A DNA stretch of 29,901 nt, taken from a virus. Shown in pieces: positions 9,750 through 29,901 of this stretch (positions within the stretch are counted from its first letter, which is position 1; every line of letters starts with the position of its first letter). The translations under genes were made by a program, and so were the position numbers. Under the pieces are notes generated by a model. That model made no database searches, had not been told where the DNA came from, and worked only from the letters and a program-made list of their open reading frames with translations. The stretch lies in IMG/VR virus record IMGVR_UViG_3300027971_000167, positions 1 to 29,901 of that record, one strand, 5' to 3'.

Positions 9750-12434
9750 ATGGCTACTACTAATTTTACTACCCGTCTAGGGCTTGCGCTTCCAACCCAA
9801 GGGGACTTGTCCGGTACTTGGGGTAACGAAGTAAATAACTTTATTTCAAACTACGTTGACTCCGCGGTCGCTGGGGCATTGACGGTTAGCGGAGATGTTT
9901 CGCTATCTAGGACTACAGCCCCAAACTCTATTGGAAGTACGTCATCGCAGTACTCGACTATTATTGCTTCCGGACATACAAGCAACATTACTGTCACCAT
10001 CGCTTCTACAGCGGCAAAGCCTTATTTTGTTATTAACTCGTCTGGCACGTATACGGTCAAAATCTGCGGAACCGGTCCAACAACCGGTGTTACGTTACTT
10101 GCAAACGAAAAAGCTACTGTCGCTTGGAACGGATCTGATTTTGTAAAGATATCGTCAACGACGGGTACAACAGTAACAACATTTAGTGGGGGCACTACCG
10201 GACTCACCCCAAGCACTGCAACGGGGGGAGCAATAACCCTTGCAGGAACTCTAGCTGTAGCTAACGGCGGCACGGGAGTAACAACTTCCACAGGATCTGG
10301 CAACGTAGTTCTCTCAACTTCCCCAACTTTTGTCACTCCGGTGCTGGGTACTCCAACTTCTGGTACTCTTACAAATTGTACAAGTATCCCAGTTGCAAAT
10401 GCCACTGGCACTTTAGCCGTAGCTAACGGCGGCACGGGAGTAACAACTTCTACAGGTTCCGGAAGCAACGTCCTATCGACTAGCCCAACGCTGGTAACTC
10501 CACTATTGGGTACTCCAACTTCTGGAAACTTAGCTAACTGTACTGGTCTTCCCTTGACAACCGGCGTAACCGGCAATCTTTCGGTTAATAACCTCAATAA
10601 CGGTTCTGGCGCGGGTTCTTCTACTTTCTGGAGGGGCGACGGAACTTGGGCTACTGCTAGTGGCGGTGGTGGTGGATCGGTCACTAAAGTTGATGGCACG
10701 GGTACAGTTAGCGGCATTACCCTTAGTGGTTCAGTTACTACCTCTGGAAGCTTAACTCTTGGCGGTACAATCTCCGGCACGGGTTCTGGAAGTGTTGTTT
10801 TACAAACTAGCCCGTCCCTTATTACTCCTGCTCTTGGCACTCCAGCATCAGGAAACTTAGCTAACTGTACGTTCCCGACGCTAAATCAAAGCACGACTGG
10901 TACCGCTGCAAACATTACCGGCAACTTGGCGGTCAGTAATCTTAATAGTGGTATTGGAGCATCTGCAACTACTTTTTGGTCCGGTAATGGTACGTGGGCT
11001 ACTCCGTCTGGCGGTGGTGGTGGGGTTACGTCTTTTAGCGCAGGGAGCACTGGGTTTACACCTAATACGGCAACAACCGGTGCTATTACTTTGGCTGGAT
11101 CTTTGGCGGTTGGTAGCGGGGGCACGGGTGCTACAGCTACTACGGGTTCCGGGAATAACGTACTCTCTAACAGCCCAACGCTGGTAACTCCGGTGCTTGG
11201 TACTCCAACTTCTGGTACTCTTACAAACTGTACGAGTATTCCTGTCAATCAAGCGACTGGAAACCTTCCGGTAGCCAATTTAAACAGCGGTACTAGCGCA
11301 TCTTCTTCTACTTTCTGGAGGGGCGACGGAACTTGGGCTGCACCTACTTTTAGTGTTAGCACTACGGGGACTGGATCTACATATGTATTACAAGGTAGCC
11401 CAACAATTACTACGCCTACCATCAGCGGAAACGCAACCGTTAACGGCTTAAAGCTTGGGACTTTCCCCAATAATGACGCTACCAATACTGTATTTGGTTC
11501 ACTTGCTGGAGGAGGTTCCGGTGCTACCGGTACTTATAATGTTACGGTTGGTTATTTAGTGGGGGGTTTACTTTCAACCGGGGTTGGCAATACCGCCGTA
11601 GGAGCTGTAGCACTTCAGAGTTGTAGTACTGGGAATAGCAATACTGCCGTAGGAACTACAGCACTTAATGCTTGTAGTACTGGTTCTGAAAACACTGCTG
11701 TTGGGTATACCGCACTTAGTGATATCACCACTGGAATTCGTAACACAGGACTTGGTTCTTTTGCTGGTCAAAATATCACTACGGGTGGTAGTAATGTCGC
11801 AATTGGATATGCTTCATTAAATAATGGTATTACCGTTAGTGATAATGTCGCGGTAGGGAATACTGCATTATACACTTGTACGAACGATGGTAATACTGGT
11901 GTTGGGCACTCCGCAGGAAATTCTATAACAAGCGGTGCTGTTAATACTTGTATTGGTTATAGCTCTGGAGTTAGCCTTACTACTGGGTTAAACAATGTTT
12001 GTATTGGATATTCTTCCGGTACAAGTTCAGCTTCTGTATCTAATACTGTTACATTAGGCAACGCAAGTATTGCCACGTTGCGCTGCGCGGTTACCAGTAT
12101 CACCGCAATCTCTGATGCCCGCGACAAGAAAGACATTGTTGATATCCCAATTGGTTTAAGTTTTATTGAAAAGCTGCGCCCCGTTTCGTTTAAGTGGGCA
12201 ATGCGTAATCTTTACGAAGATCCGAAATTTACGGGAAAACAAGATATCCCGGAGTTTGGATTTATTGCCCAAGACCTGCAATCGGTACAAGAAGAAACCG
12301 GCGTAACAGTTCCTAATTTGGTAATGGACGACAACCCAGACAGAATAGAAGCTGCACCTAGTTCTCTTCTTCCAATCCTCATCAAAGCTGTGCAAGAACT
12401 GGCCGCCCGTGTGCAGGAGCTAGAGGCTAAGTAA
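9750..12434 (+). CDS. Tail fibre with YadA-like repeats and C-terminal S74 chaperone
   Basis: 894 residues. The N-terminus ([20 protein letters not shown]) is the usual virion-attachment start of this fibre type. The middle repeats LAVANGGTG, SPTLVTPxLGTPTSG and FWRGDGTWA units. Residues about 609-770 are YadA-head-like repeats (NTAVGxx[20 protein letters not shown]) forming a trimeric beta-roll. The last 107 residues are a Peptidase_S74 intramolecular chaperone: the motif [10 protein letters not shown] places the cleavage Ser at 788, followed by [25 protein letters not shown] and a final coiled coil. The family trimerises the fibre, then cuts itself off before the Ser. AGGA just after the upstream stop precedes ATG 9750. 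No enzymatic depolymerase domain is visible. Confidence 0.92.
10257..11339 (+). repeat. Interspersed perfect direct repeats in the fibre gene
   Basis: A 32-bp stretch at 10257-10288 recurs perfectly at 10419-10450 (162 bp, 54 codons apart). A 37-bp stretch at 10616-10652 recurs perfectly at 11303-11339 (687 bp, 229 codons apart). Both are in frame and encode the ANGGTG and FWRGDGTW units. They could mediate exchange of fibre segments by homologous recombination. Confidence 0.85.
11574..12060 (+). repeat. YadA-head-like protein repeats
   Basis: This part of the fibre gene encodes successive units of about 14-20 residues with the core N-T/V-A/G-V/I-G ([81 protein letters not shown]). The pattern is that of left-handed trimeric beta-rolls. 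Several units contain a Cys at a similar place. Confidence 0.8.
12111..12434 (+). other. S74 autoproteolytic chaperone domain and cleavage site
   Basis: Codon 12111-12113 encodes Ser788 in the motif SDARDK, which matches the conserved S-D-x-R-x-K start of Peptidase_S74 domains. In this family the chain is cut just before the Ser after trimerisation, which here would release a 107-residue chaperone and leave a mature fibre of about 787 residues. Cleavage is inferred from the family. Confidence 0.85.
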
Positions 12435-12521
12435 TCTTCCTGTCTTATGTAAATTGTAAGATTTTAAAGGGGTCACCCGCCCGCCGGGGTGCTCCCACCC
12501 TACAAACAAATGGAGTTTCTC
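12435..12521 (+). promoter_or_regulatory. Intergenic leader with GC-rich hairpins; possible promoter
   Basis: This 87-bp gap is the longest non-coding stretch in the window. Its first half is AT-rich; TAAGAT at 12457-12462 could be a weak -10 element, but I see no matching -35. Its second half is GC-rich: GGGTG at 12487-12491 can pair either with CACCC at 12474-12478 (8-base loop) or with CACCC at 12496-12500 (4-base loop), giving two mutually exclusive 5-bp stems. GGAG at 12512-12515 is then free for ATG 12522. It could be a structured leader or a weak terminator of the fibre transcript; no T-run follows. Confidence 0.4.
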
Positions 12522-12740
12522 ATGAAAGACCTCATCATCGAAGTTCTTGAAGGCTCGGAGCCGGTCGACGCGTTGCAGGCTTTGATCGCTGCTACCTATG
12601 CCGTTGCAGATGCTAACGGTGTTAGCCGCTTCACGCTGACCGAATTGTTCTCGGCTACAGTTGACGCTCACTTCGACGTTGCTGTTATGGCTGAAGAAGA
12701 AGCCGAAGAAGCTGAAGAAGACGAACAGACCGATAACTAA
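12522..12740 (+). CDS. Small acidic protein of unknown function
   Basis: 72 residues from ATG 12522, chosen because GGAG at 12512-12515 lies six bases before it; in-frame starts at 12489 and 12510 lie on or before that site. The product starts MKDLIIEVLEGSEPVDALQ, runs through a helical middle (ALIAATYAVADANGVSRF, LTELFSATVDAHFDVAVM) and ends in an acidic tail of Glu, Asp and Ala (AEEEAEEAEEDEQTDN). It has almost no basic residues. It is the only gene here with its own non-coding leader and its own strong terminator, so it may be expressed apart from the late operon. Acidic small phage proteins can mimic DNA or bind host polymerases or nucleases, but no such family is recognised here. Confidence 0.75.
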   Translation: MKDLIIEVLEGSEPVDALQALIAATYAVADANGVSRFTLTELFSATVDAHFDVAVMAEEEAEEAEEDEQTDN

Positions 12741-12747
12741 GGTCCGG

Positions 12748-12773
12748 CCCCGGTGCGACCCACCGGGGTTTTT
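12748..12773 (+). terminator. Strong intrinsic terminator
   Basis: CCCCGGTG at 12748-12755 pairs perfectly with CACCGGGG at 12761-12768 around a five-base loop, followed at once by TTTTT at 12769-12773. It starts seven bases after the stop codon of the acidic gene. The 3' arm also contains GGGG at 12765-12768, the only Shine-Dalgarno-like sequence for ATG 12776. Confidence 0.92.
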
Positions 12774-12775
12774 AT

Positions 12776-13216
12776 ATGTTATCTTGCGCTGTTTGCCGTG
12801 GAGAGTTCCTCCGAGAAGACCTTATTGTCCACGGGCGTAAGGACTATTTTCTTTGTAGCGCGTGCAAGTCAGACGTAAACCGGCTTGACCGGTTCGGGTT
12901 GTCACCGTCAGATTATGACTTCCTGTTGAAACTTCAGGGGTATAATTGTGCTATCTGTAACAACCCCCTCAAACTCAGACAGTACAAGTTTGCGGTAGAC
13001 CACTGCCACGACTCGGATGACGTTCGTGGGATCTTGTGTAAACGGTGTAATACGGCGCTAGGTATTTTTGAGGACGACCCGGACATGATCCTGCGAGCCG
13101 CAGAATACTTGAACAACCCGCCAGCCTTGGGTAGAGTCAAGAAACATGACGGGCGCAAAAAGGTGACGTTCCTTAGAAATGAGTACATCAGGAGGCACGG
13201 CGGTGGAGCTAGTTGA
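12776..13216 (+). CDS. Endonuclease VII-like nuclease with extra N-terminal Cys pairs
   Basis: 146 residues. The core from residue about 47 matches the recombination endonuclease VII family (T4 gp49 type), which cuts branched DNA such as Holliday junctions: zinc ligands Cys58/Cys61 (CAIC) and Cys88/Cys91 (CKRC), and the catalytic stretch VDHCHDSDDVRGILC with Asp75, His76 and His78, followed by Asn92 (CNTALGIF). Residues 4-30 hold two further CxxC pairs (Cys4/7 and Cys27/30), probably a second zinc ribbon. The C-terminus is basic (VKKHDGRKK). It could resolve DNA before packaging or act as a homing-type nuclease. ATG 12776 lies three bases after the terminator T-run. The 3' end overlaps the next gene by 14 nt. 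Confidence 0.88.
   Translation: MLSCAVCRGEFLREDLIVHGRKDYFLCSACKSDVNRLDRFGLSPSDYDFLLKLQGYNCAICNNPLKLRQYKFAVDHCHDSDDVRGILCKRCNTALGIFEDDPDMILRAAEYLNNPPALGRVKKHDGRKKVTFLRNEYIRRHGGGAS
13191..13195 (+). promoter_or_regulatory. Strong ribosome-binding site fixing a GTG start
   Basis: GGAGG at 13191-13195 lies seven bases before GTG 13203, within the end of the nuclease gene. It decides the start of the 51-aa membrane protein, which otherwise would lack a clear initiation codon. Confidence 0.8.
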
Positions 13217-13358
13217 ACTCTTCCTAAAAGCATGGCCGGTGCTGCTTGGTATCGTGACGCTCATCATTGTGCTCTCTAAGCTTGACTTGCGCGTAGCAGT
13301 CCTTGAGGAAAAAGTCAAGTCCGCGTTTGAGATCATCAACAAGATGAAGGACAAATAA
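13203..13358 (+). CDS. 51-aa single-TM protein of the lysis cluster
   Basis: GTG 13203 with GGAGG seven bases upstream; ends TAA 13356-13358 in a TAATG overlap with the next gene. The product is MELVELFLKAWPVLLGIVTL, IIVLSKLDLRVAVLEE, then KVKSAFEIINKMKDK. Residues about 11-25 form one membrane helix, and the remainder is a short amphipathic charged helix. Size and place beside the endolysin and holin suggest a lysis-accessory role (antiholin, small holin or spanin component). No lipobox or Pro-rich linker is seen, so a classical o-spanin is unlikely. Confidence 0.75.
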   Translation: MELVELFLKAWPVLLGIVTLIIVLSKLDLRVAVLEEKVKSAFEIINKMKDK

Positions 13359-13669
13359 TGAGCGAAAAACTTGAAGCCAAGAGTCAGCTTATCGAGAAGA
13401 CCGCCTTTGCTGTGCTTCCGATTTTGTTTACCTGCGTGGTCTACCTGATGTCTGCGCTGGACAAACTCACGCACGAGGTCACTGTACTTAACGCCAAAAT
13501 CTCCCTCGTTGTTACATCAGACAACAAACAGGCTACAAACTCTGGGGCTGAACTTGCGCGGGAAAAGCTGCGGCAAGAGCTTGAGAAAGAGATTCAGCAC
13601 AACCGCGACATGATCCACGACAATCAGAAGCACATCAGCATCATCGAAGACCGGATGGCGAGGAAATAA
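13358..13669 (+). CDS. Single-TM coiled-coil protein, possible i-spanin-like
   Basis: 103 residues. A charged N-terminus (MSEKLEAKSQLIEKT) is followed by one membrane segment at residues 16-34 (AFAVLPILFTCVVYLMSAL). A long helical periplasmic-type region follows: LTHEVTVLNAKISLVV, then ELAREKLRQELEKEIQHNRD, MIHDNQKHISIIEDRMAR. An N-terminal anchor followed by a coiled coil is the layout of inner-membrane spanins (Rz type), which link inner and outer membranes in the last step of lysis. No matching o-spanin lipobox is visible nearby. It sits directly before the endolysin with a TAATG overlap. It could instead be a holin regulator. Confidence 0.75.
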   Translation: MSEKLEAKSQLIEKTAFAVLPILFTCVVYLMSALDKLTHEVTVLNAKISLVVTSDNKQATNSGAELAREKLRQELEKEIQHNRDMIHDNQKHISIIEDRMARK

Positions 13670-14178
13670 TGGCTGACTTCAACCCCGCTTTTGAGAAGAT
13701 GATCCACGACGAAGGTGGATACCAACTAACTGACATTCCGGGCGACCGGGGAGGACAAACGTATGCAGGGATTGCCAGAAAACCAAACCCAGACTGGGCA
13801 GGGTGGCAGCACATCGACCGCAAAGATTTTGGGTCGGCTACGCCATTGGTTCGTGAATTTTATAAAGCTAATTTCTGGGATCGTGTCCGAGGTGACGACA
13901 TTGCGAACCAAGCTATTGCCGAGACAATATTCAATTTCTCCGTCAACACCGGAGTCGGCGTCGCAGCCAAGCTCGCCCAACTCATCGTCGGAGTCACCCC
14001 AGACGGTGCAATCGGTGCAAAAACCGTCGAACGGTTGAACATTTGTACGGCTGAGAAGTTCCTGCCAGCCTACGCTCTTGCCAAAATCAGCAGGTACGCT
14101 CAAATCTGTAACAAGGACCGAGGGCAATCCAAGTTCTTACTCGGTTGGATCAACCGCACTCTTGCAGGACTCAAGTAA
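13669..14178 (+). CDS. GH108 endolysin (N-acetylmuramidase) with peptidoglycan-binding domain
   Basis: 169 residues. The N-terminal half has the glycosyl hydrolase family 108 signature: FEKMIHDEGGYQLTDIPGDR followed by GGQTYAGIARKPNPDW. Glu15 in DEGGY is the expected catalytic acid. The C-terminal half (NTGVGVAAKLAQLIVGVTPD, GAIGAKTVERLN) matches the PG_binding_3 domain that usually follows it. It cleaves the sugar backbone of peptidoglycan. The length is normal. There is no signal peptide, so it needs the holin encoded immediately downstream to reach the cell wall. The start overlaps the previous stop (TAATG). Confidence 0.93.
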   Translation: MADFNPAFEKMIHDEGGYQLTDIPGDRGGQTYAGIARKPNPDWAGWQHIDRKDFGSATPLVREFYKANFWDRVRGDDIANQAIAETIFNFSVNTGVGVAAKLAQLIVGVTPDGAIGAKTVERLNICTAEKFLPAYALAKISRYAQICNKDRGQSKFLLGWINRTLAGLK

Positions 14179-14615
14179 TGGATCTGATTGGAATAGGGAG
14201 CATCATTGAAGGCGTGGGTAAGGTTGCCGGTGACCTCATTACCACCGATAAAGAGAAACTCCAGATGGCGCTTGAGGACCGCAAACTCGATCTGGAGGAA
14301 AAGAAAATTGACCAAGCCACTGACCTCGCCCAAGTGGATATCAATAAAATTGAAGCGGCGAGTAGTAGCGTATTTGTCAGTGGCTGGCGTCCTGCTGTGG
14401 GCTGGGTTGGGGTGCTTGGTCTGGCTTACCAATTTCTTGGCTACCCCCTGATGCAGTGGTGTTGGGCTTTTGGTCAAAGTTATGACATAATCCCCAAGGG
14501 GTTGAACCCTCCGCCAGACCTAGATGTTGAGCAACTCATGACCCTTCTTGCTGGTCTCCTCGGTTTTGGCGGTATGAGGTCTTTTGAGAAGCACAAGGGT
14601 GTAGCGAGTAAGTAA
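14178..14615 (+). CDS. 3-TM holin (Holin_3TM / GTA-type)
   Basis: 145 residues from ATG 14178, overlapping the endolysin stop; an alternative start at 14145 lies within that gene. After a charged helical N-terminal half (LITTDKEKLQMALEDRKLD, LEEKKIDQATDLAQVDINK) comes SGWRPAVGWVGVLGLAYQFL, the hallmark of the three-membrane-segment holin family first described from gene transfer agents. Two more membrane stretches follow (YPLMQWCWAFG, then LMTLLAGLLGFGGMRSFEK). It is expected to form the pore that lets the adjacent endolysin out. The next gene starts on its last base. Confidence 0.9.
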   Translation: MDLIGIGSIIEGVGKVAGDLITTDKEKLQMALEDRKLDLEEKKIDQATDLAQVDINKIEAASSSVFVSGWRPAVGWVGVLGLAYQFLGYPLMQWCWAFGQSYDIIPKGLNPPPDLDVEQLMTLLAGLLGFGGMRSFEKHKGVASK

Positions 14616-16747
14616 TGGCCCTCAAGAAACTCCAACTTCGTCCGGGCGTAAACAAGGAAAACACTCGTTACGCTAATGAAAACGGTTGGTTTGACAGCGA
14701 CAAGGTTCGGTTTCGTGAGGGCACGCCTGAGAAAATTGGCGGTTGGCAACAGATATCTGGTAATACGTTTTTAGGCATATGCCGGTCTCTGTGGAACTGG
14801 GTTACTCTTGCTTTTGAAAATTTGGTTGGGGTAGGGACTAACTTAAAATTCTATATTGAGCAAGGTGGCGCGTACTACGACATCACCCCAATTCGCGCTA
14901 CGACTACTCTAGGTACAAACCCGTTTACGGGTAACGGCACCACAACGGTAACAGTTACAGCCCCCCTGCACGGAAGCATTACTGGGGACTTTGTTACGTT
15001 TAGCGGGGCTACGGGCACATACGCCACATTGCTGAATGCTGAGTACGTTATAACGTACGTAGACGCAAACTCGTACACAATAACAACTACCTCTGTTGTC
15101 GCGGCTGGTGCAACGGGCGGGTCTGCTGTTGTCGCTGCCTATCAAATAGGTGTGGGCGCTGCGGTTCAACTTCCACCGGTGGGGTGGGGTTCAGGTGGGT
15201 GGGGTACTGGTACTTGGGGTAGCGGGTCACCCACTGCCACCGATATTCGGCTCTGGTCACAGGCAAATTATGGGCAAGACTTAATTTTTGCTTACCGCCG
15301 AGGCCCGATATACTATTGGAATGCCACTACTGGGATCGGCACGAGAGGAGTTTTATTAAATTCTTTGGGTGGAACGGTTACATTTACAAGTGCTTCTCCT
15401 ACGGTTGTTACACTAACTAATTTGTTCCCCAACGGCACGCCCGTGCAGTTTGCCTTTTCTTCTGGTGGAGCACTACCAACTGGTATAAGCGCAAACACGA
15501 CGTATTATCTAGAAAATGTTGTCGGTGTAACTGCTAATCTTGCAACAGTTGCTGGAAGCACTGTATATGTTAATACTACATCTACTGGATCTAACGTATA
15601 TATCTCTAAACTAATAGACGTACCCACGATACAAAATCTAATTTATGTATCGGATAATCGGTTTGTATTTGCGTTTGGGTGTAACGATTATGGTTCGGCC
15701 ACGCAAAACCCCATGCTTGTGCGATGGTCAGATTATGAAAACCCAACAAGTTGGACGGTTGCCCAAGATAGTCAAGCCGGATATGTTACTCTTTCGCACG
15801 GTTCCGAGATAGTCGCTGCTGTTCAAACGCGCCAAGAGACCATAGTTTTTACCGATGCGGCGCTTTATTCGTTTCAGTATATTGGCGTGCCGGGAGTATG
15901 GAGCCAGCAAATTCTTGGCGATAATATATCAATTATCAGCCCTAGCGCCGCTACGGTTGCGTCAGGACGAATATACTGGATGGGCGTCGATAAATTCTAC
16001 ATGTACGACGGGCGCGTCAATACCCTTAACTGCGATCTACGCAAGTATATCTTTCAAGATATAAATCTTGGGCAAGTTGAACAAATTTTTTGCGGGACCA
16101 GCGAAGGATTTAACGAAGTTTGGTGGTTTTATTGTTCGCTTACGGGGCCAAATGGCACAAACGACGCAGCAAACCCCAATGTCATAGTTGATCGGTATGT
16201 GGTTTATAATTATCTTGAGTCGGACGGCAAGGGCGGACAGGGTATTTGGTATCATGGAAAACTGTCTCGCACCGCATGGCTCGATTCCGGATTGCTAAAT
16301 TTTCCAATTGCCGCTACGTATAGTTATAACCTTGTCAACCATGAATCCGGGGTTGACGACCAAGAAACCCCTACAACCTTACCTATCGTTGCATATATAT
16401 CTTCAGCAGAATTTGACATCGACGACGGCGATAAATTTGGGTTTATATACCGGATGCTGCCCGACGTAACATTTGAAGGGTCAACCTCGGCTAACCCCTC
16501 TGCGGTCATGACGTTGCTCCCGATGCAAAACTCTGGGTCAGGCTACAACACCCCTACATCAGTTGCCGGTAGCGACAACGCCACGGTAACTCGAACTGCC
16601 ACTATACCTATTGAGCAATTTACGGGGCAGGTGTATATCCGAGTGCGCGGACGACAGATGATTATGAAGATTGAGTCTACTGGAGTGGGTGTTGCTTGGC
16701 AACTAGGGTACCCCCGTATTGACATTCGCGTAGATGGGAGGAGGTAA
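14615..16747 (+). CDS. Large tail protein (tail tube B / tail hub-like, 710 aa)
   Basis: The N-terminus LQLRPGVNKENTRYANENGW, FDSDKVRFREGTPEKIGGWQ is a recognised start of a large structural protein in aquatic podovirus-like phages. Repeated W/G/Y-rich blade-like pieces (LWSQANYGQDLIFAYRRGP, WMGVDKFYMYDGRVN, EVWWFYC) suggest a beta-propeller like that of T7 gp12 or P22 gp10. Two inserted small beta modules are visible: HGSITGDFVTFSGATG with NAEYVITYVDANSYTITTTS, and a second near ANTTYYLENVVGVTANLATV. No enzymatic motif is seen. It starts in a TAATG overlap with the holin gene. The exact tail position is inferred by analogy. Confidence 0.75.
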   Translation: MALKKLQLRPGVNKENTRYANENGWFDSDKVRFREGTPEKIGGWQQISGNTFLGICRSLWNWVTLAFENLVGVGTNLKFYIEQGGAYYDITPIRATTTLGTNPFTGNGTTTVTVTAPLHGSITGDFVTFSGATGTYATLLNAEYVITYVDANSYTITTTSVVAAGATGGSAVVAAYQIGVGAAVQLPPVGWGSGGWGTGTWGSGSPTATDIRLWSQANYGQDLIFAYRRGPIYYWNATTGIGTRGVLLNSLGGTVTFTSASPTVVTLTNLFPNGTPVQFAFSSGGALPTGISANTTYYLENVVGVTANLATVAGSTVYVNTTSTGSNVYISKLIDVPTIQNLIYVSDNRFVFAFGCNDYGSATQNPMLVRWSDYENPTSWTVAQDSQAGYVTLSHGSEIVAAVQTRQETIVFTDAALYSFQYIGVPGVWSQQILGDNISIISPSAATVASGRIYWMGVDKFYMYDGRVNTLNCDLRKYIFQDINLGQVEQIFCGTSEGFNEVWWFYCSLTGPNGTNDAANPNVIVDRYVVYNYLESDGKGGQGIWYHGKLSRTAWLDSGLLNFPIAATYSYNLVNHESGVDDQETPTTLPIVAYISSAEFDIDDGDKFGFIYRMLPDVTFEGSTSANPSAVMTLLPMQNSGSGYNTPTSVAGSDNATVTRTATIPIEQFTGQVYIRVRGRQMIMKIESTGVGVAWQLGYPRIDIRVDGRR

Positions 16748-20875: not shown

Positions 20876-22210
20876 ATGAGCCTTTACCATTTGCTCTACC
20901 CTGATAACATGGGTGTTCAACACTTTGACGCGGGTGGTGGGGTAGCCACGGGCGTACGAGAAACTACCGTATCCGACTGGGCTGCTCCCGTTGTCGGGGG
21001 TATCGTTAATGCTGCGGTTGATGCTGCGGCTAACCCGTACCAAGTCTACAGCGGCAACTTAGTTGCTGGTGCGTCTGACCTCCAGAACAAAGCGTTCTCA
21101 GGTATCCAAAATCTAGCCAGTCCTAATACGACGCAGACAAACGCCAGCACCAACATGCAGGACGTGTATACGTCTGCGGCCACTCAGCCTGCGTACGGTA
21201 CTGGAAATTTTAGTAAAGCGGCTAATCCACTTAACCAATCTTCATATACTGGGGGCCAAGATTATACTAAAGCAGGCGCTGCATCTACTCAGCCTGCGTA
21301 CACGGGAACGACGTTCACGTCTAACACGACGGGGATCAACAATCAGTTTGATCAGAACGCGCTTAACAGCTACATGAACCCGTACCTGTCTACGATCCTG
21401 AATCCGCAGCTTGCGGAGGCTCAGCGTAACGCGAATATTCAACAGATGAAGAACAACGCGCAATTGATCAAATCTGGCGCGTTTGGTGGTAGTGGTCAGG
21501 CTTTAGCAAACGCAGAGACCAGCCGCAATTTGGGAACTAACCTCGCCAACATCACTGGCAAGGGGTATTCAGACGCATATACCCAATCCCTAGGACAGTA
21601 CAACGCTGATCAGAACCGACTGCTTGACGCGCTGAGAGAGAAAGAAAGATCTGGACAGTACGGGTATACTAAAGACGCAGAACGTCTTGCTGCTGACAGA
21701 GCCGCACTCTTTGATTCATTAAAAGCCACAGAATCATCTAATCAGTATGGCTACAATAAAGACCGGGAACGACTTACTGATGATAGAACCGCGCTTCTTG
21801 AATCGTTAAAAGCTGACGAAGCGTCTAGACAATTTGGCGCTAAACAAGGTCTTGATTACCTCAAGCTCGCGGGCGATACAGCTCAGAACCAAGGTCAGTT
21901 TGGCAATCAACTTGCTGACAGACAGTTGGCGGCTAACTTGCGAGAAGCTGACCTTGGTAGTATCCAGCGTGACATTACCCAGCAGGGTCTGACCTCTGAC
22001 TACAATCTGTTTAAAGAACAGCGGGATTATCCGAAAGAACAGATTAAGTTTCTTAATGACATTATGAAAAACTACCCGATGACCACCACTAACGAGTATG
22101 GGGAGCCTACGTCTGCGGCTAACTCCACTTTTGGCGGTATCTTGTCTGGTGTTAGCCTTGCTGAGCGGATGGCTAGATTGAGCGGCGGCACTAAAACTAC
22201 AGATGGTTAA
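20876..22210 (+). CDS. Virion structural protein with helical repeats (444 aa)
   Basis: ATG 20876 follows AGGA with normal spacing. Near the N-terminus is QHFDAGGGVA, then a Ser/Thr/Gln/Asn-rich region. The core ALNSYMNPYLSTILNPQLAE, then SGAFGGSGQALANAETSRN, is a recognised signature of phage structural proteins in many environmental podovirus-like genomes. It is followed by three similar helical units (RLLDALREKERSGQYGYTKD, ALFDSLKATESSNQYGYNKD, ALLESLKADEASRQFGAKQG) and a Gln-rich helical end. The three units suggest a rod-like helical repeat. Its place between large Ala/Gly-rich proteins fits an internal or ejected virion protein. No catalytic site is visible. Confidence 0.78.
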   Translation: MSLYHLLYPDNMGVQHFDAGGGVATGVRETTVSDWAAPVVGGIVNAAVDAAANPYQVYSGNLVAGASDLQNKAFSGIQNLASPNTTQTNASTNMQDVYTSAATQPAYGTGNFSKAANPLNQSSYTGGQDYTKAGAASTQPAYTGTTFTSNTTGINNQFDQNALNSYMNPYLSTILNPQLAEAQRNANIQQMKNNAQLIKSGAFGGSGQALANAETSRNLGTNLANITGKGYSDAYTQSLGQYNADQNRLLDALREKERSGQYGYTKDAERLAADRAALFDSLKATESSNQYGYNKDRERLTDDRTALLESLKADEASRQFGAKQGLDYLKLAGDTAQNQGQFGNQLADRQLAANLREADLGSIQRDITQQGLTSDYNLFKEQRDYPKEQIKFLNDIMKNYPMTTTNEYGEPTSAANSTFGGILSGVSLAERMARLSGGTKTTDG

Positions 22211-22219
22211 GGACTAGAT

Positions 22220-24109
22220 ATGGGACCGACACTTGAAGAGACCCGCCGCGACCTGCGGTACATGCCGACCCAGTATCTGACGCAAGTCGCCCAGAGTCCT
22301 AACGACCGGGTTATTGGTGATATCCCCCTAAAAACTTTAGCGGGGCTGGAGTTGAGCCGCCGTGCGCAAATGCAAAACGAGTTAGCCGCAAGGGGTGCGG
22401 CTAATCCTCAAATGCCCACGGTGCTGGATTCGACCGTACAGACGCTTAGTCCACAGCGTCAGCAGCCCATGCCCCAGCAAGGCATGATGCCTCCCCAACA
22501 ACCGCAGCAACCCATGCCTCAGCAGGGTATGCCCCCGGCCCCACCACCCCAACAAGCTGCGCCTCAACAACCGCCGCAGCCTCAACAGCAACAGCAACCA
22601 CCGCAAGCAAAGCAACCTCCCATTATGGGACTACCTGCTATGCAAACCCCGAAGAAGATGGCCGGGGGTGGGATCATTGCGTTTGCTGGGCCGGAAGGTA
22701 GTGAAGTACCCCCTGCGGAAGAGGCTACTTCTGCGCTAGGAGACATGCTGCGCAGCTTTCTTAGGGGTCCAGAGAAAGACGGGAGAAACGCCAGAGAAAT
22801 TGAGTGGGAAGCAGCAAAAGCCAACCCCAATACTTGGTTTAATCTTGCAACTGCAATGACCCCGAGCCAACGCAAGGCGGCTTCTGAGAAAGCGGCTGCT
22901 CTGCGTAGAGAAGCGGAAGGCATACGCGGTACATCTGTGCCCCCCGCCGTTGAAGAAGATGCTAAGAAAAACGAAGGCAACCCTGCAATTATCAAAGCCC
23001 CAGATCGAGCTAGTGGGTTAGCCGACCTTGCAAGAATGGCAGGGGGTATAGGTGGCGGCGGTGGGTTTGGTGGACCGTCTAGAGAAGAAAGCGCGTTACG
23101 TAAACAGCTTCTTGAAGGACTTGATAAGAAAGGCCCTGCCCAAACAACGTACGAAGCAAACGCTGATAGGATGGCTAAGGATTTAGAGACCGCTCGTGCT
23201 CCTGCTTTATCAGAAGAGCAACGAGATGCGTTGGAACGTAAGAAATACAATGAATACCAAGAGCGTTCTAAGCCTCACTTCGACATGATGCAAAAGCTGA
23301 TTGACGAAGAAAAAACTGCGAACAACGCTGGTAAAGAAAGCGAATTTTATCAAATGCTTGGTAAAATGGGTGGCGCGTTGATGTCTAGCCGTGGAGCATT
23401 TGGTCCCGCGTTGGGCCGTGCCGTAGGTGAAGGTATTGACTACAGCGATAAGATGGATGCTGCCCGTGCTACCGCTGAGCGCCTACGTCGCAGTGCCCAG
23501 ATGGATCTTCTCAAAGCCCGCATGGCTGACGAAAAGAACGATCAAAAATCTGCTCAAGAGTATATAAACGAGCATGACCGCAAACTACAATCTGCTTTTA
23601 AAATCGACCAAGATTTAAAGGTTGGCGCTCTGAATATCCGCAAGAGTGTGGCGGATCTTGAAGCCGGAGATGAACGTAGTAGGGAACGTGTATTAAATCA
23701 ATTGGCAATTTCTGATGCAAAGAATGAAGCTCGGGCGGCTGTAGCTGGCGCTAACCAGCAGAATGCTATGTTGAAAATGCAACTGGGATTGATGGGTTTA
23801 CAACAAAAACGCGAAGTTGCCCCTCTAGAAAAGATGAAGATTAAAGCGGCCATAAACGAGATGTTCTCTAATCCGTTTAATGATTCAGATGCTATTGGTT
23901 ATATCCAAGCTGTAAAAGGTAACCGGGGTGCAAACTTACTGGCTAAAATTAAGAGTGGTGAATTAAAGCCTAAAGATGCTATGTTAGACCCAGTTATAGC
24001 CGAAGCTCGAAAAATTGCATATGACGATTTTTTATCGGGCACCAGCAAGAGCGGTGGGGGTTCTGGCGTACAGAGCTATGATAGTTATGTTGCAAACTTG
24101 CCTAAATGA
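22220..24109 (+). CDS. Gln/Pro-rich internal virion protein (629 aa)
   Basis: The start IPLKTLAGLELSRRAQMQNE is a short helical module I recall from the N-terminus of large phage proteins. Residues about 75-135 are a low-complexity Pro/Gln/Met tract (repeated QQPMPQQGM, PPQQ). The tag MAGGGIIAFAGPEGS follows at about residues 147-161. The remainder is long, charged and mostly helical (ALGRAVGEGIDYSDKMDAAR, ATAERLRRSAQMDLLKARMA, KNEARAAVAGANQQNAMLK) and probably a coiled coil. There is no enzyme motif. Length and composition are like internal core or ejection proteins. It ends in an ATGA overlap with the giant gene, suggesting they are made together. Confidence 0.75.
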   Translation: MGPTLEETRRDLRYMPTQYLTQVAQSPNDRVIGDIPLKTLAGLELSRRAQMQNELAARGAANPQMPTVLDSTVQTLSPQRQQPMPQQGMMPPQQPQQPMPQQGMPPAPPPQQAAPQQPPQPQQQQQPPQAKQPPIMGLPAMQTPKKMAGGGIIAFAGPEGSEVPPAEEATSALGDMLRSFLRGPEKDGRNAREIEWEAAKANPNTWFNLATAMTPSQRKAASEKAAALRREAEGIRGTSVPPAVEEDAKKNEGNPAIIKAPDRASGLADLARMAGGIGGGGGFGGPSREESALRKQLLEGLDKKGPAQTTYEANADRMAKDLETARAPALSEEQRDALERKKYNEYQERSKPHFDMMQKLIDEEKTANNAGKESEFYQMLGKMGGALMSSRGAFGPALGRAVGEGIDYSDKMDAARATAERLRRSAQMDLLKARMADEKNDQKSAQEYINEHDRKLQSAFKIDQDLKVGALNIRKSVADLEAGDERSRERVLNQLAISDAKNEARAAVAGANQQNAMLKMQLGLMGLQQKREVAPLEKMKIKAAINEMFSNPFNDSDAIGYIQAVKGNRGANLLAKIKSGELKPKDAMLDPVIAEARKIAYDDFLSGTSKSGGGSGVQSYDSYVANLPK

Positions 24110-27100
24110 AAATAGTAAATGTTCCCGGTGCAGGCCCGCTATCTTTTCCAGATTCGGAATCTGATGAATCTATATATGCAAAAGTTGCAAGGCTTCAGGA
24201 ACATTTACAAAAACTTGATTTAGAAAGTCGTCCAGACCCACGTAACATTCCGTTTAGTCGGGTTGCAAGTAACGCCTTCAATCGTACCGTCAGGGGGCTA
24301 GGGATCACGGCTCTTAATGAGCTACCGGCTCTTGGCGCGTCCCTGCTTGGCGAAGATGAAACCGCCGCTAGACTGTTGGATAAAGGTATAGCCGAACGCC
24401 GAACCCTTGAAGAAGAGTATCCAACATCTCAAAGAACTTTTGAAGGTATCCGTGGGCTATCTGATGTTGGTAAATTTTTTGTTGAGTCTGGTGTAGAAGC
24501 CGTACCCACTGTGGCTGCGATTGCGGGGACCGGTGGTATTGGGGCCGTTGCTGGGCGTACCGCTGCTAAGTATGGAGTGGAAGCGGCACTTGCTCGCGCT
24601 GCGGCGCAACGGGGTGTGGGTGTGGAGGCGGCTGAAGCGGCTGCTGCCGCTGCTAGATCTAAAGCTACTCAGACTGGTCTCAATGTGGGTCTTGGTACGG
24701 GTAGCTTCGGCCTCAACGCGCCTGAGTCTTTTGCTGGTATTTACGAAGAGACCGGCGGCAAACTTGAACCCGGCCTTGCTATTGGTGCTGGCGCATTCAA
24801 AGCTCTCTTTGATGGCCTTCTCCCAGCCCGAGTATTAAATCAGTTGGGGTTACGTGGTCAGGCTAAGTTAGCGGAAGAAATCGCCGCGCGGTCCACCATC
24901 GTACCGGACAGCTTCAAGTTGCGGCTTGCTAAAGAAATTGGCAAAACTGCGCTTACTGAGAGCACAACTGAAACCCTTCAAGAATCAATTGACATTATTG
25001 CGGAGCAGCTTGCTGGCGCTCCGGGTGGGTTATCCGATCCTAAGAATGTAGACCGGCTGTTGATGGCCGCTGCCAAAGGTGGTATCGGTGGTACTGTTAT
25101 CAGTACTCCGGGTGCTGTGGTCCAGACCATGCGGGAGACTCCCGCAAAAGAGCCTGAGCTACCACTCAACGAGACTAAACTTGCTGGATCTGTTGGCCCC
25201 GGCCCCGCTGAGAATCTTGCAGCGGCTATGCAGAAGCGCAAAGCTAAAGAGGCTATTACCGAGGACGAGTTCCAACTGCTCGTCCAAAACGGTGTACTCA
25301 AAGACAACCCACAGACAAGAGCTTCGGTAAAATTTGCCGCCCCTTCAACTGATCCGTCTCTAGAAGAACAAACCAACGCGGCTACTACTAGGGAAGCTGT
25401 ACAGAATGACGAAGTAGCAAACGCCGCTTTGGCACAAGCTGCGTTACAGCAAGCGCAACAGCAAAACCAACAAAACGATCAAGTACGCCAAAATGCGCTG
25501 GCCCAAGCGCAAGCAGCTAATGAACAGCGGAAAGCGCGAGAAATCGCCGCGTATCAAGCTAGACAAAAAGCGGCGTCCGAAGCCGCCATGGCTCAACGGG
25601 AAATTGAAACCCAAGATCGCGCCGCAGCAACACAACAGGCCCAACAAAATGCCCAACCTAACGCCCAAGCCAACGCAACACCTGCTCCAACTGTCACTCC
25701 CCCAAGTGGAGCAAGCCCTAATGTACCTAGCGGACCCCAAGGAGGAGTACCCCCCGCAGGAGTTGCAACATCTCCACCCCCTAGAGTGGCACCTGCTGAA
25801 CAACCTCCTCAACAAGCTGGAGTGGGAGAAGCAGCACAGCCCCCTACAGTAACAAAGGGTAGGCAAGCAATATGGAGTAATAAAGATACCGACATTCCCG
25901 TCACAGTTATTGCTGAACCAGAGACCAGCAAAGACGGAAAACAGTTTGTCAAGGTTCGGTACGACCTCCAAGGGAATACGGGGGAAAATTACGTTCCGTT
26001 TGAGGAATTAAAGTTTTCAACTCCTACGCCAACCCCTGCCCCCCCTACAGTAGAAGTAGGTACGCCAGCCGAAGAGTGGAACACTCAGTACCGCACTAGC
26101 GATGCTGAACCAACATTTGAGCAACTGCCCCCCACTATGCGTCGGAGGTGGATGGATGCCCCTGCTAAAACGACAGAGTTGTTTGACTCAATTGTTAATG
26201 ACTACGGCGCTGCCGCTCCGCTGGCTCCAGAAAGACCCGGACTTCTTAACCAGCCCTACACGTACTACTCGCCTAAAGAGATTGGCATTCCCGGTGACCG
26301 TCTGGCGCTGCGTAAACTAAAGAATGACGACAAGTTTGCCGACACATATTTTGATCGCCCACGGTTAGCAGACAACCTGATCAACCTTGCCCATGACCGG
26401 ACGTTTGAGAACTACACCGAAGCTAGATCAAAAGAACGATTAGATGCGCTGGACTCTTGGGTTCGCAGTAACCTGACCGATGACGCGGTGCGTGGATACG
26501 ACGAGCAAATAGATAAGCAACGGCAAATTCTGGCTGGTGAGCAAAAATATAACCTCACTACTAAAGCTAAAACAAAAAAAGCTAAAGCAGAAAGAGATGC
26601 CGCAGATCAAGCAGCTAATGATGCGGAAGCAGCACGTCAAGCGGCAGTCCGTGCCGCCCAGCCTAGCGGCCCAGCGCCCGTTACTGTAATAAATCCAGAG
26701 GCGGCGCAAAGACAACTTGATAACATTCGCGCTTTAAACGAAGCAAAAATCAAACGTGCAGCGGAAAACAAACTAACCGAAGAACAGTTGGCAGAACGAC
26801 GAGCTAAAGAAGCCAAAGATCAAGAAACTGAACTTGAGAAAGCACAAAGAGAGGCGGATGCTAAGGCAGAGCAAGAAGAGGCCGATCTTGCAAACGAAGC
26901 CTTTGATGCTAGGGCAACCGCTGCCAATGAAGCAGAAGAAAACGAACGGCTGATGCGGCAAAGGCAAGAGGAGCTTGCTAGAAAAGAAACTGAACGAGCC
27001 GCTGCTCGCGCTGCGGCACCTCAACCTGCGGAAGCTCCGGCAATTACTAAGCCGGAAAAACCAGCAGAAGTTAAAAAGGAAGAAGCCCCTGCAAAACCTA

Positions 27101-29901
27101 GCGGTAATTTGCCTGAGGGCAAACCGCCACTAAATACAATTGTTTTTAGCAAGGACCCAGAAAACGGTTCTATGTGGACGCCTGAAGCCGTTAAAAACTA
27201 CGGCGATATGGTTGTATCGGTTACAGGTAACGGACCTACTGTTAGTTTTACTCCACCTATAGAGATTACTAATTACGGTGTTACGGGTGTTTATTTAACT
27301 CCAGACCGTATTGGTGTGAGCCTGAACACTATAGATGGTGATTTAGTCAGACTAACTTTGCACGATGAAAAGTTTTTAGAGTTAGAGCGTTTTAATACCG
27401 GCACGTTTGCTCGGTTATACCTTAATAGCTTAGACCCTAAAACTGAAACTAAATTTCGTAGGGCGTTTGGTGACGCGGTAATTGATGACTTTATTAAAGG
27501 CGCAACCCCAACTCAATTCTTAACCAAACTTATTGGGGTTGATATAGAACCGCGTTTACGCGAAGTATCTGCTGCATTTGAAAAACAGTTCCTCGTAAAC
27601 AAGCCAGCGCAGTATGCCGAGGGTGTAGCCTATAAGCCTTTGTCCGACAAGTTCCCTATTTCTCGGGAAGATTTTGCTCGCGCTTTGGGTATCACGACCC
27701 ACAACAAGGCGTGGCTGGCTACCGACTTCAATGCTGAACTGGCAGATGCGGCTACTAGAGGCGACATGCCAGCGGTGATAAAAGTGCTGTTGGCTAGTAA
27801 GAACCCCATCATCCGAGACATTGCACTACGCGCTCAAGCAACACAACGGTTCATGCCTTCGGATCGGATAAAGATTAAGATCGCTGATGAAGAACTTGCT
27901 GAAATAGACCTAGAGAAAGGTCGCCGACCCGGAAATCTTGCAGGGATGTTTGACGGTAGGAACAATACGGTCCTGCTTAACTCCGTATACGCTGGCAGCG
28001 AGCACACCATAGCTCACGAAATTGTCCACGGTCTGACGGAAAAAATAATCAAAATGCCTCACCCCGGCAATCAGCTTGAAGCGGTCAATCGCCTCAGGCG
28101 GTTGTACAAGGATGTACTTGCCAAAGCCAAAATCGTCTACGAGACTGACGATATTAAGAAACTCCCATACGGCTTTACGTCAGAGTCTGAGTTTATCGCT
28201 GAAGGTCTCAGCAATCCTGAGTTCCAGTACCTCCTCGCTGCGCTGCCTCACGAGGGTAAAACCTCCTCGATGTGGACCGAGTTTGTCCGGGCGATTGCCC
28301 AACTCTTGGGCTTGAAAGACCACAACGCTCTAACAGAACTGCTGGACATCTACAGCGTCATGCTTGAGCGGGACCTGCCTCCAAACAAAAACGTCAGTGG
28401 TGCCGTAACAGCCGCGCTGATTGGGGCTCCTCCTCCACCCAATAACAATTACCCCTTAGTTCCTGACGACCTCCCTGCAAACGCCAAAGTCCCTTCGACG
28501 GTATCAACCCCGCCAGCCGCCCTACCCCAAGTTGCAATAAACCGGACGATGGTGGGGCCGATGCAGCAGTTGCTTGACGCCCCTAAGAACAGCGAGTTCT
28601 TTATTAACGCAGCAGATGCGGCGGGGCGGTGGGGCCTGTCTTTGCTGCCTACGTGGAACATCGCCGCTAACGCGCGGGACATGGGGTTCGATCAGATTGG
28701 AGAGATTGAGAACAGCTTGCGTAAAGCTGGCGCGATGAAGGACACAATTCTCAAGCGTAGCTCAGACTTTATGACTAAGGCACTGGCGATTGCCAAAGCT
28801 GACCCTGCCGGTAAGAAAGCGATGGACGCCTTCGTGAACCGCGCATCTGATCTTGCTATTGATGTGACCCGCAGCAAAACCCCAACACCAGAGTTTGTCA
28901 AAGCTCGTGGGGAAGAAGCGGCTATTGACTACCTGTCGCTGCGTGCTGAGTACGACAAGCTCCAACCCAAGTTTCAGAAGTTAGCGTCGGATCTTGTTAA
29001 TCAGTACCGACAGTTCCGTAACGAATACTTCGAGGCCCTGAAAAAGTCTGTGCGCGACCAGTATCAGGATGACCCAGTTAAAGCGGACAAGATCCTGTCT
29101 GGATTGGATGAGAAGTACAAAAAGTTCAACGAAGCCTACACGCCATTCGTCCGCATAGGGGACTACTGGATCACGTATGTCAACCCTGACACTGGCAAAG
29201 ATGTTGCTGAGTCCTACACCAGTCTGGGTGCTCAAAAGACCCGGCTTGATGAGTTAAAGAAGGCTGGAATTGCATACGTTCAGTCATTCAAACAGACGGA
29301 CTTCAGGAAGTTCAGTTACAAGAGCGGGCCCGTCAATCAGTTCTTTGACGAGATCAAAGCTAACGTAAACAAAGCACTGCCTATCCACAAGGATGACCCT
29401 GCCGATGTAGCTGACCGCATCCGTGAAGCACGAGAGGAAATGAAAGAGCGTCTGTATCAGGCGTCCCTGCTGTTGCACCCAGAGTCCTCCATGCTTCGGC
29501 AGTTTGGTCTTGAGCGTAAGGGCACGCTGGGTTATATCGAGGACACCCTCGCTGCGTACGACCAGAAGGCTCCGGTTTACGCTACACAGATCTCTCAAGT
29601 TGCTAATAAAGGCGAGATCGAGTATCAGATCGACAGCGCACGGAAGCAAAACGCCAGCAACCCCGACACGAAGATGAGTGACATCATCACGCACGTCGCC
29701 AAGATCGTCTACGGGGTAGACACAATCCGCGCAGATGACCCTCTGAATAAAATTGCCAACAACGTAAACAAGCTGGGTTTCACGTACTACATGGGCTTCA
29801 ACCCTGCGTCGGCTCTTGTAAACATGTTGCAGACACCCACTGTGATGTTCCCGCTGCTGGCTGGCGAGTTTCACGGGCTGGGCCAACTCAAGATCATGAA
29901 C
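24106..29901 (+). CDS. Giant virion protein with HExxH zincin and PLxRFG-like motif (3' truncated)
   Basis: ATG 24106 overlaps the previous stop as ATGA. The frame stays open for 1932 codons to the window end. In order: an Ala/Gly-rich hydrophobic stretch (residues about 126-190), a helical piece TETLQESIDIIAEQLAGAPG (about 289-308), a Gln/Ala-rich coil (about 426-585), a small beta domain (QAIWSNKDTDIPVTVIAEP, about 587-640) and a charged coil (about 800-985). A zincin motif follows with His1304, Glu1305 and His1308 in EHTIAHEIVHGLT; SESEFIAEGLSNPEF nearby could supply the third ligand (Glu1360, Glu1362 or Glu1366). Further on, PFVRIGDYWITY (1680-1691) resembles the PLxRFG motif, and GFNPASALVNMLQTPTV is near the end. 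It is probably an ejected polyvalent protein carrying a protease. Confidence 0.8.
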   Translation, partial: MKIVNVPGAGPLSFPDSESDESIYAKVARLQEHLQKLDLESRPDPRNIPFSRVASNAFNRTVRGLGITALNELPALGASLLGEDETAARLLDKGIAERRTLEEEYPTSQRTFEGIRGLSDVGKFFVESGVEAVPTVAAIAGTGGIGAVAGRTAAKYGVEAALARAAAQRGVGVEAAEAAAAAARSKATQTGLNVGLGTGSFGLNAPESFAGIYEETGGKLEPGLAIGAGAFKALFDGLLPARVLNQLGLRGQAKLAEEIAARSTIVPDSFKLRLAKEIGKTALTESTTETLQESIDIIAEQLAGAPGGLSDPKNVDRLLMAAAKGGIGGTVISTPGAVVQTMRETPAKEPELPLNETKLAGSVGPGPAENLAAAMQKRKAKEAITEDEFQLLVQNGVLKDNPQTRASVKFAAPSTDPSLEEQTNAATTREAVQNDEVANAALAQAALQQAQQQNQQNDQVRQNALAQAQAANEQRKAREIAAYQARQKAASEAAMAQREIETQDRAAATQQAQQNAQPNAQANATPAPTVTPPSGASPNVPSGPQGGVPPAGVATSPPPRVAPAEQPPQQAGVGEAAQPPTVTKGRQAIWSNKDTDIPVTVIAEPETSKDGKQFVKVRYDLQGNTGENYVPFEELKFSTPTPTPAPPTVEVGTPAEEWNTQYRTSDAEPTFEQLPPTMRRRWMDAPAKTTELFDSIVNDYGAAAPLAPERPGLLNQPYTYYSPKEIGIPGDRLALRKLKNDDKFADTYFDRPRLADNLINLAHDRTFENYTEARSKERLDALDSWVRSNLTDDAVRGYDEQIDKQRQILAGEQKYNLTTKAKTKKAKAERDAADQAANDAEAARQAAVRAAQPSGPAPVTVINPEAAQRQLDNIRALNEAKIKRAAENKLTEEQLAERRAKEAKDQETELEKAQREADAKAEQEEADLANEAFDARATAANEAEENERLMRQRQEELARKETERAAARAAAPQPAEAPAITKPEKPAEVKKEEAPAKPSGNLPEGKPPLNTIVFSKDPENGSMWTPEAVKNYGDMVVSVTGNGPTVSFTPPIEITNYGVTGVYLTPDRIGVSLNTIDGDLVRLTLHDEKFLELERFNTGTFARLYLNSLDPKTETKFRRAFGDAVIDDFIKGATPTQFLTKLIGVDIEPRLREVSAAFEKQFLVNKPAQYAEGVAYKPLSDKFPISREDFARALGITTHNKAWLATDFNAELADAATRGDMPAVIKVLLASKNPIIRDIALRAQATQRFMPSDRIKIKIADEELAEIDLEKGRRPGNLAGMFDGRNNTVLLNSVYAGSEHTIAHEIVHGLTEKIIKMPHPGNQLEAVNRLRRLYKDVLAKAKIVYETDDIKKLPYGFTSESEFIAEGLSNPEFQYLLAALPHEGKTSSMWTEFVRAIAQLLGLKDHNALTELLDIYSVMLERDLPPNKNVSGAVTAALIGAPPPPNNNYPLVPDDLPANAKVPSTVSTPPAALPQVAINRTMVGPMQQLLDAPKNSEFFINAADAAGRWGLSLLPTWNIAANARDMGFDQIGEIENSLRKAGAMKDTILKRSSDFMTKALAIAKADPAGKKAMDAFVNRASDLAIDVTRSKTPTPEFVKARGEEAAIDYLSLRAEYDKLQPKFQKLASDLVNQYRQFRNEYFEALKKSVRDQYQDDPVKADKILSGLDEKYKKFNEAYTPFVRIGDYWITYVNPDTGKDVAESYTSLGAQKTRLDELKKAGIAYVQSFKQTDFRKFSYKSGPVNQFFDEIKANVNKALPIHKDDPADVADRIREAREEMKERLYQASLLLHPESSMLRQFGLERKGTLGYIEDTLAAYDQKAPVYATQISQVANKGEIEYQIDSARKQNASNPDTKMSDIITHVAKIVYGVDTIRADDPLNKIANNVNKLGFTYYMGFNPASALVNMLQTPTVMFPLLAGEFHGLGQLKIMN

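Follow-up and report, generated by a model that had tools for sequence, protein, structure and literature searches.

The window analysed here, a 29,901-nucleotide stretch of viral DNA, ends inside the gene of a giant protein that, judged by its sequence, is one more polyvalent ejection protein of a known class, with a predicted peptidase module that recurs in very different phages. We consider it fairly probable that the giant is the third protein of a podovirus ejection operon, and that it is packed and ejected, its zincin-like domain acting after entry on the giant itself or on a host protein.

Gene context and domain layout

The reading frame of the giant is open from an ATG at 24106 (plus strand) to the end of the contig, which agrees with the at least 1932 codons claimed in an earlier note on this DNA; since the window is the entire IMG/VR record, the gene lacks its 3' end. 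Its start codon shares the sequence ATGA with the stop of the upstream ORF (22220-24109), in line with the overlapping start named in the earlier note, and the same overlap is present in the related locus L003. Six related loci were recovered. Complete relatives of the giant have 2,024-2,123 aa and retain both HExxH and PFVRIGDY; where compared, their N-terminal start is the same, MKIVNVPGAGPLSFPDS. In L003, L004 and L005 the giant stops about 65 bp short of a convergent gene block, which in L003 encodes a replication module (primase/helicase, helicase, exonuclease and DNA polymerase). Because it abuts the convergent block in these three loci, the rightward late operon ends with the giant. The two genes before it complete an ejection trio (see the table); the family-profile searches gave no family match for the second protein. 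Further upstream, genes for an Endonuclease VII-like protein, an endolysin and a holin (12776-14615) lie within the structural block, flanked on one side by the tail spike gene (S74 chaperone, 9750-12434) and on the other by more virion genes. When bacterial genomes were scanned with the tail of the giant, the only matches were two distantly related giants of Rhizobium/Agrobacterium (24% identity).

Table. Features of the ejection trio and of the giant protein in the window
Feature	Residues of the giant	Position	Strand	Basis
Ejection protein, 444 aa, first of trio		20876..22210	+	PHROG 4287 'DNA ejection protein' E 6.6e-10; L003 ortholog E 1.1e-17
629-aa protein, second of trio		22220..24109	+	Conserved in L002, L003, L006
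Giant, putative polyvalent ejection protein, 3' end missing		24106..29901	+	ORF; complete relatives
N-terminal element	274-341	24925..25128	+	hhalign vs N4-type vRNAP N-terminal domain
Gln/Ala-rich low-complexity linker, variable length	about 420-600	25363..25905	+	Alignment A1
Small beta domain, modular cassette	1003-1147	27112..27546	+	AF2, pLDDT about 75-90 mostly
Zincin-like metallopeptidase domain (predicted)	1209-1425	27730..28380	+	Profiles, conservation, AF2, structural and PDB sequence matches
HExxH (HEIVH)	1304-1308	28015..28029	+	Invariant in 21 domains
Predicted third zinc ligand, Glu	1362	28189..28191	+	Invariant; retained in distant homologs
LPD39-like region	about 1537-1671	28714..29118	+	PF18858 in relative P0004
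Tail-700 / PLxRFG domain, first third	1677-1924	29134..29877	+	NF032893, 85.6 bits (cut-off 100)
PFVRIGDYW motif	1680-1688	29143..29169	+	Sequence

The chain combines several unrelated domains (the N-terminal element, the beta cassette, the zincin and tail-700) beside virion genes, and fits best among the phage-type polyvalent proteins. Phage-type polyvalent proteins with a zincin-like metallopeptidase (MPTase) were described as a class by Iyer et al. in 2017 (PMC5512222). The giant resembles this class in the length of its complete relatives (>2,000 aa), in its late virion-gene context, in the MPTase HExxH with a Glu on a later helix, and in the LPD38/LPD39 and ART-PolyVal domains of related giants, but differs in that the window protein itself (P0001) has no Pfam polyvalent domain match: the Pfam scan of it gave zero matches, LPD39 included. 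In the relative P0004, PF18858 (LPD39) scored 24.5 bits, just under the cut-off of 27. Across 16 aligned giants (alignment A4, L016-L028 set), which are 15-43% identical to the reference row, LPD39 was matched in 7 and ART-PolyVal in 4. In these four, the shared scaffold bears another effector, an ADP-ribosyltransferase.

Several parts of the chain vary. A hydrophobic Ala/Gly segment, claimed in the earlier note, is real, though only mildly hydrophobic (Kyte-Doolittle peak of 1.44 near residue 132), and the stretches read there as coiled coils are Q/A/E-rich and variable among relatives in the alignment. The small beta domain was predicted by AF2 with nine strands between residues of about 1011 and 1105 and a pLDDT of about 75-90 except for the first strand, in line with what the letters alone had suggested. 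It is present only in the proteins of the window, L005 and L002 (P0001, P0004 and P0005) and missing from L003 and L004. The L004 and L005 giants are 97-98% identical over most of their length, and L005 carries an extra, clean in-frame 537-bp segment with the beta domain (L004 2292-2296 against L005 1583-2121). That closely related giants differ by a whole domain agrees with the mosaicism reported for polyvalent proteins. In VIA-align, rows for the beta domain such as TCP10, polo-box and KhtT stood at Z 5-6.5, within background. The L002 giant (10001-15688) has an extra block at residues of about 590-880, with an apparent second, diverged copy of WNxQYR...W, which suggests an internal duplication.

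The zincin-like domain

The intact HExxH that had been noticed in the giant is present, as are the acidic residues after it, Glu1360, Glu1362 and Glu1366. In a shuffled protein of the same composition 0.0065 HExxH motifs would be expected, and the motif is invariant in 21 related domains, so it is not there by chance. A scan with the zincin-domain alignment returned 21 loci. In the 21 domains, His1304, Glu1305, His1308 and Glu1362 are invariant down to about 21% identity. The 16 giants share, without exception, His1304, Glu1305, His1308, Glu1362, Phe1363, Glu1366, Asn1370, Glu1372, Phe1373 and three other residues, a pattern also seen in the 21 domains; Glu1360 is not conserved. The equivalent of Glu1362 is kept in far more distant proteins, in the segments NEFMAWGLAN (N4), HEFISQ (PhiM1), DEFIAQ (CX5), KEFITY (Limnohabitans), DEFVTH (Vibrio), KELVAW (9sfn) and HEMLAG (23sg), as well as in phi14:2. 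Glu1366 differs in most of the distant homologs, including N4 and PhiM1. Since distant relatives keep the first Glu only, Glu1362 is the predicted third ligand, which narrows the choice among three glutamates left in the earlier note. PHROG 2206 matches the window protein at E 2.7e-6. In some giants (L014, L015, L017 and L027) there are two HExxH sites per chain; in L017 they lie at 964 and 1624, and the zincin profile matches both.

AF2 was run on residues 985-1440 of the window protein with 21 sequences and gave a mean pLDDT of 71.5, the zincin core being mostly at 70-90. In the model's own numbering there is a helix at 250-265, strands at 272-275, 296-299 and 304-307, and helices at 315-332 and 376-385. 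In the numbering of the giant, HExxH lies in the predicted helix 1299-1316 and Glu1362 in the predicted helix 1360-1369, with three short strands before them, and the core of the zincin class (an N-terminal helix, a three-stranded sheet and two C-terminal helices) is present in the prediction. Foldseek with the two-domain zincin model returned no match at E <= 0.001, and unrelated long chains dominated its output. VIA-align on the top 1000 Foldseek chains gave all of the first 16 rows to the catalytic region of lethal factor, a zinc metallopeptidase of the zincin class (163 residues, rmsd 4.9), at a Z of 7.4, which is below the level convincing by the aligner alone. Taken alone, this match of the predicted model is moderate evidence. 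When PDB sequences were searched with the zincin profile, lethal factor (E 0.014) ranked behind three phage ejection proteins, and with HHpred Iyer et al. had assigned the N4 domain to this fold (PMC5512222). Taken together, conservation and the predicted fold identify the zincin domain as real.

Ejection-protein relatives and the proposed role

The three phage proteins found in the PDB sequences were 9sfn_G, an 'internal virion protein' (2.7e-12), the PhiM1 tetrameric ejection protein gp48 (8vb2_A, 6.3e-9) and gp10 (23sg_S, 1.3e-7). In the Limnohabitans phage YIMV22061 and the Pectobacterium phage CX5 the zincin is found at the position of T7 gp16, downstream of the tail tube genes; the Limnohabitans homolog has an N-terminal transglycosylase too, and in the CX5 homolog (L049 5960-9652) Pfam shows no lysozyme-type domain. 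Cellulophaga phage phi14:2 g065, whose virion annotation is based on mass spectrometry, carries the zincin (E 2e-25), and its gene adjoins that of a catalytic RNA polymerase subunit. A Vibrio phage protein of 3,130 aa also contains the domain. In T7 gp16 itself, which has an HExxH-like string (HERLH, residue 559), the zincin profile found no match.

PhiM1 gp48 and the proteins at the gp16 position in autographiviruses, like the giant, carry the zincin and are the largest protein of their ejection block. They differ from it in size (1.2-1.6 kaa), in their flanking domains and in having no tail-700 match, and the N-terminal lytic transglycosylase of the T7 gp16 type is absent from the giant (no SLT match in P0001 and P0002). 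In the PhiM1 study, residues 268-528 of gp48 were called endolysin/exotransglycosidase-like via BLASTP and DALI (PMC11440229). The zincin profile match in gp48 covers 378-515, with HExxH and the partner Glu, and lies within this published stretch. The domain thus appears to contain the zincin core, and the 'endolysin-like' label is probably a misassignment, so the published assignment merits re-examination.

Homology therefore supports the earlier reading of the giant as a zincin joined to an ejection-type scaffold and carried in the virion: the domain occurs in solved ejection proteins, mass spectrometry detected a homolog in virions, and the gene stands last in an ejection operon. Most likely, the giant would be stored in the capsid, be driven out through the tail in an unfolded state before the DNA leaves, and refold at or inside the host envelope. 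The peptidase would then turn active, its zinc bound by His1304, His1308 and Glu1362 and Glu1305 serving as general base, and would cut either the giant itself, releasing parts of it, or a host protein. Roles listed by Iyer et al. for such MPTases are processing before packaging, action inside the head, action after injection and attack on host proteins (PMC5512222); by analogy, the post-injection roles appear to fit best.

A maturation protease would instead cut the giant or its neighbours during assembly, prior to packing or in the course of it, and leave fragments in the capsid. The long variable linkers upstream of the zincin would suit such a role, as does the precedent of phage P1 DdrB, a polyvalent protein with a predicted C-terminal metallopeptidase that is cleaved or shortened before packaging (PMC5512222). 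However, the N4 virion RNA polymerase (vRNAP) is packaged unprocessed (PMC5512222), and the gp48 domain of PhiM1 was modelled inside the capsid within the longer ejection-protein chain (PMC11440229). Both make cutting before packaging less likely, and we regard the maturation reading as improbable.

Somewhat less probable again is a dead zincin that would serve packing or ejection as a structural module, with no proteolysis. In both PhiM1 and N4 the domain is part of a large architectural protein for which the available text of the two studies reports no protease activity (PMC11440229, PMC12633501), and the N4 authors point out that HExxH occurs in other enzyme types as well. Against this, all three ligands and the general-base Glu stay constant among highly divergent proteins whose remaining residues change, which a structural role alone would not need.

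A broader reading may be put forward, tentatively: one zincin could be the recurring active part of injection machines, cutting a common class of envelope target or freeing injected enzymes. This reading, possible but doubtful at present, would cover N4-type virion polymerases, crAss-like virion proteins, T7-type tetrameric ejection proteins and the tail-700 giants, and if it is true the 'endolysin-like' domain of PhiM1 is this zincin peptidase. The sequence-profile link itself points to a single metallopeptidase family in ejection proteins of phages with very different transcription strategies, some of them solved by cryo-EM, so that well-studied laboratory phages could be used to test what is cut when phage DNA enters.

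The tail-700 region and the link to N4

At the C-terminus, the match of the window protein to NF032893 (tail-700) stays under the cut-off, the contig ending after 230 of 681 model positions. Complete relatives, which are 83-91% identical to L003 across this region, score 325-329 bits over positions 2-677 of 681, with P0002 matching the full model at 329.5 bits; the model was matched in 9 of the 16 giants. The complete relatives thus have the full domain of the tail-700 family, which includes RHph_TM29 EVB31_083 and the 'PLxRFG' protein of Klebsiella phage LASTA. AF2 predicted the tail too poorly for a structure search (pLDDT 56, pTM 0.36).

The PFVRIGDYW string noticed earlier is indeed present at 1680-1688, where the giant has PFVRIG in place of the exact PLxRFG of the family name. 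Matches to tail-700 show the forms PFVRIG, PFLRRG, PLVRKG, AFDREG, PLVRRG and PLGRFG, with PLMRRG in RHph_TM29, and across 12 tail sequences the motif region has just three fixed residues, Y, R and G. The motif being degenerate in other NF032893 matches as well, PLxRFG does not define the family in practice. Its variation was accordingly rejected as the possible subfamily marker that the earlier note had suggested together with the domain order. PFVRIGDY is identical in the seven closest proteins and, on these alignments, is a lineage signature of those seven and no more. The domain order is shared too: a chain with zincin and tail-700 occurs in other phages, including the isolated Rhizobium phage RHph_TM29, whose 2,328-aa EVB31_083 has the zincin followed by a nearly full tail-700 and, unlike the giant, an inorganic pyrophosphatase domain.

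The tail region also bears on the very improbable reading of the giant as a DarB-like antirestriction protein. PHROG 10089 ('DarB-like') matches its C-terminal part (E 4.1e-7) and tail-700 relatives carry such names in RefSeq, but Pfam found no methylase or SNF2 helicase in P0001, P0002, P0004 and P0005, and the part in common is tail-700 only. Complete relatives have neither domain in the 3' part that the window protein lacks. With the methylase and helicase domains missing, this candidate was rejected, and the name would be misleading for giant-type proteins. RefSeq entries with 'DarB-like antirestriction' names where the tail-700 region matches include NC_054966, NC_054965 and NC_048758.

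The operon layout parallels that of N4, where the order gp52-gp51-gp50 corresponds to the ejection protein, a protein of about 630 aa and the giant. Like N4 gp50 (PDB 9pnq, 11gp), the giant is the last and largest of the trio and has the N-terminal element and a zincin with the same three predicted ligands; in N4 the motif is HELVH at 2228-2232, with Glu2229 as the predicted general base. It differs in that the polymerase domain of gp50 is not found in the giant and C2 has no detectable similarity to tail-700. The alignment of the 16 giants was compared with 8 schitovirus vRNAPs by hhalign, the E-values being those of single comparisons. The N-terminal element, in which both groups share ExxxExxQ and a Gly-rich end, was matched at 96.2% and E 2.4e-9 (reversed control E 0.54), and the zincin at E 3.4e-8 (reversed control 0.34). 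The N4 element went undetected (E 0.27) when the N-terminal alignment was limited to the five closest proteins, so this link rests on the broader 16-member family. The 629-aa neighbour holds the position of N4 gp51 and has no detectable sequence similarity to it. In the comparison of tail-700 with the N4 C2 domain, nothing rose above the reversed control (hhalign E 0.75 against 0.27).

That the giant might be an N4-type virion RNA polymerase, as the PHROG 2206 match and the two shared domains could suggest, is refuted for the part in the window and for the complete relatives and has a negligible probability: the PHROG match is restricted to the zincin, the N4 polymerase-domain profile matches none of the giants, and Pfam RNA_pol was found in neither the 61-kb nor the 56-kb relative, the T7 and N4 positive controls being detected. 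Plausibly, the giant works like N4 gp50 in the latter's capacity as an ejection protein.
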